From the NCBI GenBank assembly GCA_014730345.1, contig WJIJ01000047.1, positions 1-37,925 on the forward strand: a DNA stretch of 37,925 bases. Direction: 5' to 3'. Below the pieces are notes generated by a model. It was not told the origin of the DNA and searched no databases. It saw only the letters and a list, made by a program, of their open reading frames with translations. Source of the DNA: Candidatus Zixiibacteriota bacterium. Lineage in GTDB: Bacteria; Zixibacteria; MSB-5A5; UM-FILTER-46-8. The position numbers and the translations under genes are program-made. How positions within the stretch are numbered: the first letter of the stretch is position 1; the number at the start of each line of letters is the position of its first letter. This document shows, piece after piece, positions 19,340-20,703 of this stretch.

Positions 19340-19533
19340 GATTCTAATATAATAAAAAAATAATGAAATACAACATTGAAATAAAACAAGGTTCAAATTA
19401 TGTCCAATACAATACGTAATATCGCTTATACATTCTACTATGAATCCCCTTATAATACTTCATTTTAGGAAATTGTTGTGTATATTTATATGGGCATTAT
19501 ATACGTATTATTACTATTTTTTTAAAAAACCGC

Positions 19534-19562
19534 TTGACAAATTCGCTAGTCTGTATTATCCT
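19534..19562 (+). promoter_or_regulatory. Strong sigma70-type promoter driving an intergenic transcript
   Basis: TTGACA (19534-19539), 17-nt spacer, TATCCT (19557-19562). Immediately upstream is an UP-element-like tract TATTACTATTTTTTTAAAAAACCGC. Confidence 0.7.
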
Positions 19563-19568
19563 TTTATC

Positions 19569-19677
19569 AAATAAAATTAAAGCTCTCGGGGAGCTATTTA
19601 AGATTTAAGGGTGATACCTCCTCACTTCGGGTAGTTCCAGCCCCCCTCTACCCAAGTAAAAGGTACACCCTTTTTTA
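19569..19677 (+). ncRNA. Candidate structured small RNA (unknown family)
   Basis: Hairpin AGCTC-TCGGG-GAGCT (19581-19595). Outer stem AAGGGTG(A)TACC (19607-19618) with GGTACACCCTT (19662-19672). Inner stem ACTT(C)GGGTAG (19624-19634) with CTACCCAAGT (19648-19657), loop UUCCAGCCCCCCU. U-rich 3' end TTTTTTATTT. No ORF. Confidence 0.6.
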
Positions 19678-20703
19678 TTTTAATCTAATATGATTACTAT
19701 ACACCCACCCTTTGCCCTGCTTGGTCGCTTCCACCCTGTAAATCCCGGGCGAAAATAACGGGATTTCACCTGAATCTCCACGGAATTTGCTGTAGCTCTT
19801 TCCATTTCGAACTACATTAACATCGGCCGCTTCCGGCAGAATAATTTTTAACACCGCTTCATCTTCATAGTCCCCTTCTCCGCCTATCTCCACCCTTGTC
19901 CTGGGAGTTTCCACCCACATCCGGAAATCCCTTGCGTCACCCCAACGGTAATTGGATATAAATATCCGGCATTCGCGGATAGCGTCATATATCTGCTTTT
20001 TTGCAGTCTCGAAATCCTCCGACAGCGGACCGGGCATCACCAGGTGGGAGCGAATCGATTTAAACTGCACTTTATATGGAAATATGGTAATGCTGAAAGG
20101 CCCTAATTTATAAGGGAAACCATGTACATCAATAGAACCGATTCCGGCTATCTTTTGATTTTCATTCAAAGCGTCCCATATCGAAAGAATCCTGTCCGTG
20201 GGCTTTTTTAGATATTTCCGGGGCCGGAGCGCCATCTTTATCTGGTTGTACTTCTTCAATCCCTCCATCCACTCGGACATATGATTCCATAATTCAATTC
20301 CATGAAATCCTCGGGCATTCCACTCAGTCCAGGGATATGACGGATACTTGGGCAGGTGTACCCGTACTTCATCAGGATGGGCTATTATCCCCAATCCGCC
20401 CAACCGGTCGGTTTCCGCCACATATTCCTTAGCGGTCAGTTCCGGGTCAAGAACATCCTCGAGCCCGAATATCAGGTAATGGTTCTTATTGGCGGCATCC
20501 TGCTCCTCATAACCTATCAAAGTCAGGGTTTTACCATAGAATCCTTCCTCGCCCTTTTTATAGCCTTTCAGGGTTAAATGATCGGTTATAAGTATAAAAT
20601 CGAGGCCGACCTCGCCGGCGATTTTAGATATCTCCTCCACGGTTTTTGTACCGTCAGAATAGGTAGTATGTATATGAATACATCCGGTAAGAACTTCAGA
20701 CAT
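19675..20703 (-). CDS. PHP domain metal-dependent phosphoesterase-like protein
   Basis: GCIHIHTTYSDGTKTVEEISKIAGEVGLDFILITDHLTLKGY (PHP motifs HxH and TDH), later GIIAHPDEVRVHLP, GIGSIDVHGFP. Confidence 0.85.
   Translation of the reverse strand: MSEVLTGCIHIHTTYSDGTKTVEEISKIAGEVGLDFILITDHLTLKGYKKGEEGFYGKTLTLIGYEEQDAANKNHYLIFGLEDVLDPELTAKEYVAETDRLGGLGIIAHPDEVRVHLPKYPSYPWTEWNARGFHGIELWNHMSEWMEGLKKYNQIKMALRPRKYLKKPTDRILSIWDALNENQKIAGIGSIDVHGFPYKLGPFSITIFPYKVQFKSIRSHLVMPGPLSEDFETAKKQIYDAIRECRIFISNYRWGDARDFRMWVETPRTRVEIGGEGDYEDEAVLKIILPEAADVNVVRNGKSYSKFRGDSGEIPLFSPGIYRVEATKQGKGWVYSNHIRLK

Follow-up and report, generated by a model that had tools for sequence, protein, structure and literature searches.

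In mycobacteria, ribosome-binding sites and G tracts are the pairing partners of the loops of the small RNA (sRNA) B11 (PMC10470900), and 6C RNA is described as "independent of RNA chaperones" in the title of Mai 2019, as cited in the same paper (PMC10470900). The alpha-r14 or cuckoo RNAs of Alphaproteobacteria, of which NfeR1 is an example, carry an ultraconserved C-rich loop motif on divergent stems (PMC10746234). FopS of Bacteroides, in the same FCB group as the Zixibacteria, is a set of multicopy paralogous sRNAs that end in a terminator hairpin (PMC11697453).

We analysed a 37,925-nt stretch of a Zixibacteria genome (the window; contig WJIJ01000047.1), which contains a predicted RNA gene, read on the plus strand, that shares features with each of these. 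Like the actinobacterial 6C/B11 RNAs, it is a stand-alone RNA with a cytosine-rich unstructured loop (PMC10470900); however, it comes from a different phylum and has no Rfam match, and whereas B11 has two C-rich loops, the Zixibacteria RNA has a single such loop, flanked by conserved residues other than C (GUUUCCUAG-CCCCC-UC). Since 6C RNAs have two stem-loops with C-rich loops, and Rfam was negative, we rejected membership of that family. The likeness to alpha-r14 lies in a constant loop on strongly differing stems. However, alpha-r14 RNAs carry CCUCCUCCC, an anti-Shine-Dalgarno (anti-S-D) motif, on three hairpins per RNA, whereas the Zixibacteria RNA carries a different motif, CCUAGCCCCCUC or CCAGCCCCCCUC across the family, on a single hairpin and gives no general anti-S-D signal; we therefore rejected this assignment too. 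With FopS it shares a multicopy paralogous family and a terminator-hairpin end, but the FopS seed is a single-stranded 5′ stretch, whereas here it is the tip of the terminator hairpin, its apical loop, that is conserved. In most homologues transcription appears to begin at the stem itself, and with Rfam negative we did not place the RNA in FopS. Like 6S RNA, it is a phylum-wide small structured RNA, but it has no promoter-mimic bubble.

Rfam gave no match in the window at gathering score and only chance matches (E ≥ 2) with a permissive threshold of E up to 10; scans of homologues and of one paralogue returned nothing beyond chance. The first-pass annotation, made from the letters alone, had recognised neither 6S nor SRP RNA, and this proved correct: the 6S model RF00013 has no match in the window or in 60 Zixibacteria genomes, and the RF00169 match to bacterial SRP RNA lies elsewhere in the genome, at C149:15380-15479. 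A literature search on small RNAs of Zixibacteria turned up nothing relevant. We conclude that the RNA represents a previously uncatalogued family outside Rfam, as no known family fits. As a kind it is not new: sRNAs that combine a constant C-rich loop with variable stems are known. The motif, the one-hairpin layout with the loop on the terminator, and the spread across the phylum appear to be new. Placing such a loop on a freely rewritten stem, a pattern found with other motifs in other phyla, looks like a recurrent solution.

Borders and genomic context of the gene

The first-pass annotation had proposed a promoter, three stems and a U-tract, and all were found where it had placed them (Table 1). 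Its picture of a transcript of nested hairpins holds for the outer and inner stems, which are conserved, but not for the small 5′ hairpin, which is part of a lineage-specific insertion. Within the window promoter a TATTAT at 19554-19559 overlaps TATCCT, and transcription probably starts near 19569. Alignment with the homologous locus L006 indicates that the two promoters are homologous and that ~40 nt carrying the 5′ hairpin have been inserted before the window stem; the window RNA should therefore be ~110 nt long. The predicted 114-nt transcript of the window has a folding energy of −35.8 kcal/mol (z = −3.9), and the core alone (19600-19682) one of −28.3 kcal/mol (z = −4.85), a stability equalled by none of 200 shuffles.

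Table 1. Features of the RNA locus in the window, with the other strong hairpins of the same genome
Feature	Position	Strand	Details and basis
Promoter TTGACA-N17-TATCCT	19534-19562	+	TTGACA 19534-19539, 17-nt spacer, TATCCT 19557-19562; aligns with the L006 promoter
5′ leader, lineage-specific, outside the conserved RNA	19569-19606	+	Absent in relatives; gap against L006
Small hairpin AGCUC-UCGGG-GAGCU, inside the leader	19581-19595	+	Sequence and fold
Conserved hairpin sRNA core	19607-19672	+	Covariance-model match 19600-19687
Outer stem, 5′ strand AAGGGUG(A)UACC	19607-19618	+	Pairs with 19662-19672; fold and compensatory changes
Outer stem, 3′ strand GGUACACCCUU	19662-19672	+	Pairs with 19607-19618
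Inner stem	19624-19634 with 19648-19657	+	Seen in sequence
Apical stem, 5′ strand GGGUAG	19629-19634	+	Pairs with 19648-19653; fold and compensatory changes
Apical C-rich loop UUCCAGCCCCCCU	19635-19647	+	Most conserved element; presumed functional site
Intrinsic terminator (outer stem 3′ strand and U-tract)	19662-19680	+	U-tract starts at 19671
Convergent PHP-domain protein gene, neighbour only	19675-20703	-	Same layout in several related families
Strong hairpins besides the window copy	C90:2762; C200:9838		TTGACA-17-TATATT, z = −5.97; z = −5.2 (respectively); fold

Across the homologues, exact TTGACA occurs in 31 of 47 upstream stretches, where composition predicts about one, and in 49 of 72 aligned rows it lies no more than 77 nt from the stem, mostly 35-48 nt ahead of it. 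Together with a −10 element that follows, this puts the likely start in most species at the stem or immediately ahead of it, which would give an RNA of ~75 nt. At least five Ts fall within the 8 nt past the stem in 65 of the 72 homologues on the plus strand, compared with 7 of 72 for the minus-strand equivalent. TTGACA upstream and the U-tract downstream thus fix the plus strand, and the earlier caveat that the locus might be a minus-strand terminator is weak. In the window, the U-tract (19671-19680) overlaps the stop codon of the PHP gene, so that the 3′ ends of both transcripts overlap.

A convergent PHP-domain gene, with an MFS transporter gene after it, lies opposite the RNA in the window and in several related families. 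In the largest families (L036, L044, L046, L054 and others) the RNA comes right after same-strand PALP (cysteine-synthase-like) and DUF1573 genes, sometimes with RtcB downstream, and in other families it has a two-component context, after a response-regulator gene that looks NarL-type when its sequence is read. Given that the neighbours are fixed within families and differ between them, we conclude that this is an independent gene and not the leader of one gene. As is expected of an sRNA gene, it is intergenic, has its own promoter and intrinsic terminator, and has no single fixed neighbour.

Distribution and covariation in the Zixibacteria

Among 58 relatives, a blastn-type search recovered the core (window ~19605-19682) at 90-96% identity from three same-family genomes, and also from numerous further families within the class. 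Scanning all 84,980 species genomes with a pattern for the apical hairpin gave 81 loci, nearly all labelled Candidatus Zixiibacteriota; a few bear other labels, and those that could be matched by contig recur in the phylum search (L082 = G113, L057 = G088). A pattern scan of viral contigs gave no match. A covariance model of the RNA, R1, had matches in 110 of 133 Zixibacteria genomes (about four fifths), comprising 66 of the 79 good-quality genomes and 74 of the 85 genera, with a best E-value of 1e-5 or lower in 109 of the 110. Its chance level is indicated by a Komeilibacteria family with matches near E 1e-3: of two weak hits there, L139, on inspection, was an ordinary terminator and was rejected as a chance match, and L140 was not confirmed. 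Where the model matches the antisense strand, it picks up a weak mirror image of the hairpin.

At L089:6890-6929 (minus strand; contig PCWQ01000014.1, Candidatus Komeilibacteria, CPR) the apical hairpin of the family, CUUCGGGUAGUUCCAGCCCCCCUCUACCCAAG, recurs; the long outer stem beneath it is different, and it has its own promoter, TTGACA-17-TAAGAT. A convincing copy of this kind was absent from 20 sister genomes, which raises the question of horizontal transfer or mis-binning.

Covariation was assessed in a plain MAFFT alignment of 57 sequences (A1) and in an alignment of 72 sequences, including paralogues, fitted to R1 (A3). Two-sided changes affect 7 of 14 base pairs in A1, and two-sided compensatory change affects 13 of 14 in A3; the latter leans towards the assumed structure because it was fitted to the model, and A1 agrees with it. 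In A3, 84 cells changed on both sides, against 15.4 expected by shuffling (0 of 500 shuffles; kinship is ignored in this comparison), and the covariation score reached 0.317, whereas slid controls did not exceed 0.096. The consensus fold of A3 is essentially the same structure with two extra pairs in the middle stem. Conserved secondary structure with compensatory changes is likewise expected of an sRNA gene, and the data support the view that evolution preserves pairing, though not sequence, in the stem, and in the C-rich apical loop the sequence itself. The first-pass annotation had suggested an Rfam scan, a search of related genomes and a test for covariation. All were run, and the absence of a family match, conservation across the phylum and strong two-sided compensatory change, together with the TTGACA promoter and the plus-strand U-tract, favour its proposal of a stand-alone sRNA.

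The invariant loop and its paralogues

The main feature of the family, missed in the first-pass annotation, is its invariant C-rich apical loop, which is shared by paralogous hairpins. The family loop, GUUUCCUAGCCCCCUC, is nearly invariant, with an invariant stretch of ~16 nt; the window version is given in Table 1. Copy number is mostly one to four per genome. Second copies in the same genome have stems that are fully paired yet hardly resemble the first copy in sequence, if at all, and still present UAGUUUCCUAGCCCCCUCUA at the hairpin tip. We conclude that selection maintains the loop rather than the stem.

Nine occurrences of the motif CCCCCCTCT were found in the window's genome. Three are the apical loops of strong hairpins (Table 1), of which the hairpin at C200:9838 has a homologue in genome G001; the others comprise one truncated copy, one uncertain hairpin and sites in coding or open-frame regions. 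The presence of the motif in some hairpin fails to separate members from chance, and membership was therefore decided on the strength of the stem together with promoter and homology. We predict at least three genes of this C-rich-loop sRNA family in the genome.

Two further variants were observed. L158, L159 and L160 form a third paralogue class, to which L149 is related, with the stem GAGAGUUCUUCUUUG...CAAAGAAAGCUCUC and the loop cut to about AAUCCCCUCU. At L016 (around 1550, minus strand) and L283 (G000:C145:5801), the loop and the 3′ strand are kept and the 5′ strand of the stem is lost, which may reflect decay, rearrangement or a different fold.

Candidate functions of the RNA

The comparative sequence evidence makes a strong case for a predicted promoter-driven, terminator-ended hairpin RNA whose conserved element is the loop. 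As to function, our best explanation, which we hold with about even confidence, is a stand-alone trans-acting sRNA whose C-rich loop would pair with G-rich mRNA sites without Hfq. The comparison of sequences supports a sigma-70-type promoter of its own and one long hairpin that forms both the whole RNA and its intrinsic terminator. The stem would hold the loop open and single-stranded, and the loop, as B11/6C (PMC10470900) and alpha-r14 (PMC10746234) suggest by analogy, would then pair with G-rich stretches of target mRNA leaders, by kissing or loop-linear contact, and lower their translation or stability independently of Hfq. The role of the paralogues would be to determine how much of this common loop activity there is, or under which condition it is expressed. 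A search for Hfq (Pfam PF17209) was negative in all 90 Zixibacteria genomes searched and positive in control genomes, which matches the chaperone independence named in the 6C title (Mai 2019, cited in PMC10470900).

Target searches did not support such pairing. At 1724 predicted starts of the relative G059 (2.0 Mb), loop complementarity was in no excess over shuffled loops or an internal control region, and G-runs matching the loop were not enriched. We rejected general anti-S-D action, as GGAGG is enriched at starts but loop-matching G-runs are not. Exact 13-nt complements of the loop in 130 genomes comprised only sRNA variants and scattered coding sites, none of them conserved; their small number does not amount to avoidance, since CTAG is itself rare. 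Few targets, or short pairing, would escape these searches. Complementarity to 16S and 23S rRNA was no better than that of shuffles, and several near-complements in the window's own genome were rejected as targets, being other hairpin genes of the family or a truncated copy.

The length of the invariant loop, which exceeds that of a typical seed, counts against antisense pairing and fits a recognition site for an RNA-binding protein, with the paralogues as decoys or scaffolds that titrate it in the manner of CsrB/RsmZ or 6S. A protein ligand accounts for the long loop and its paralogues equally well as mRNA pairing, and the same loop on several paralogues with unrelated stems, the lack of an enriched or conserved complementary mRNA site and the failure to detect Hfq all speak for it; however, no candidate protein was pinpointed, and the pattern of constant loop and variable stem also occurs in alpha-r14 RNAs, where it is described with an anti-S-D loop motif (PMC10746234). 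We regard the protein-binding reading as possible, at a tentative level. More doubtful is an extension in which the loop is the site for a new global RNA-binding protein or other fixed partner, and the paralogous hairpins form the phylum's central post-transcriptional hub. If true, this hub would be comparable in role to CsrB or 6S, yet unrelated to both, in a phylum without detectable Hfq.

That the locus is a plain or bidirectional terminator serving the convergent PHP/MFS operon, and lacks any function as an RNA, is very unlikely and largely refuted: the stem does lie at the PHP stop codon, and on the minus strand a hairpin is followed by TTTAATTTTATTT, but in most families the RNA is present where no PHP gene adjoins it, only the plus strand keeps a T-rich tail, upstream there is a conserved promoter, and the loop keeps its sequence although a terminator has no need of that. 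We consider it just as improbable that the RNA is a diverged housekeeping RNA (6S, SRP) or a riboswitch. It is phylum-wide, small and structured, and a diverged 6S-like role is conceivable where Rfam finds no 6S; against this stand the negative Rfam scans, the separate SRP RNA gene on C149, the absence of a 6S-like central bubble and, for a riboswitch or leader, the lack of a co-oriented downstream gene in the window. Several copies per genome and the truncated copies L016 and L283 might suggest a dispersed mobile hairpin repeat of the REP/RIT type instead of a gene, but same-genome copies differ strongly in stem sequence, remain few in number, occupy conserved positions within families and mostly have a promoter, making this the least credible reading.

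The predicted sRNA offers a concrete handle on post-transcriptional control in an uncultured phylum in which family models find neither Hfq nor 6S RNA, and metatranscriptomes can already be checked with the covariance model and the loop motif. In several related families (L003, L004, L005, L008, L009, L012 and L013) an inverted repeat like AATAGGGTNTTTACCCTATTG occupies the −35 region in place of TTGACA, and may act as the operator at which a regulator of the sRNA binds.
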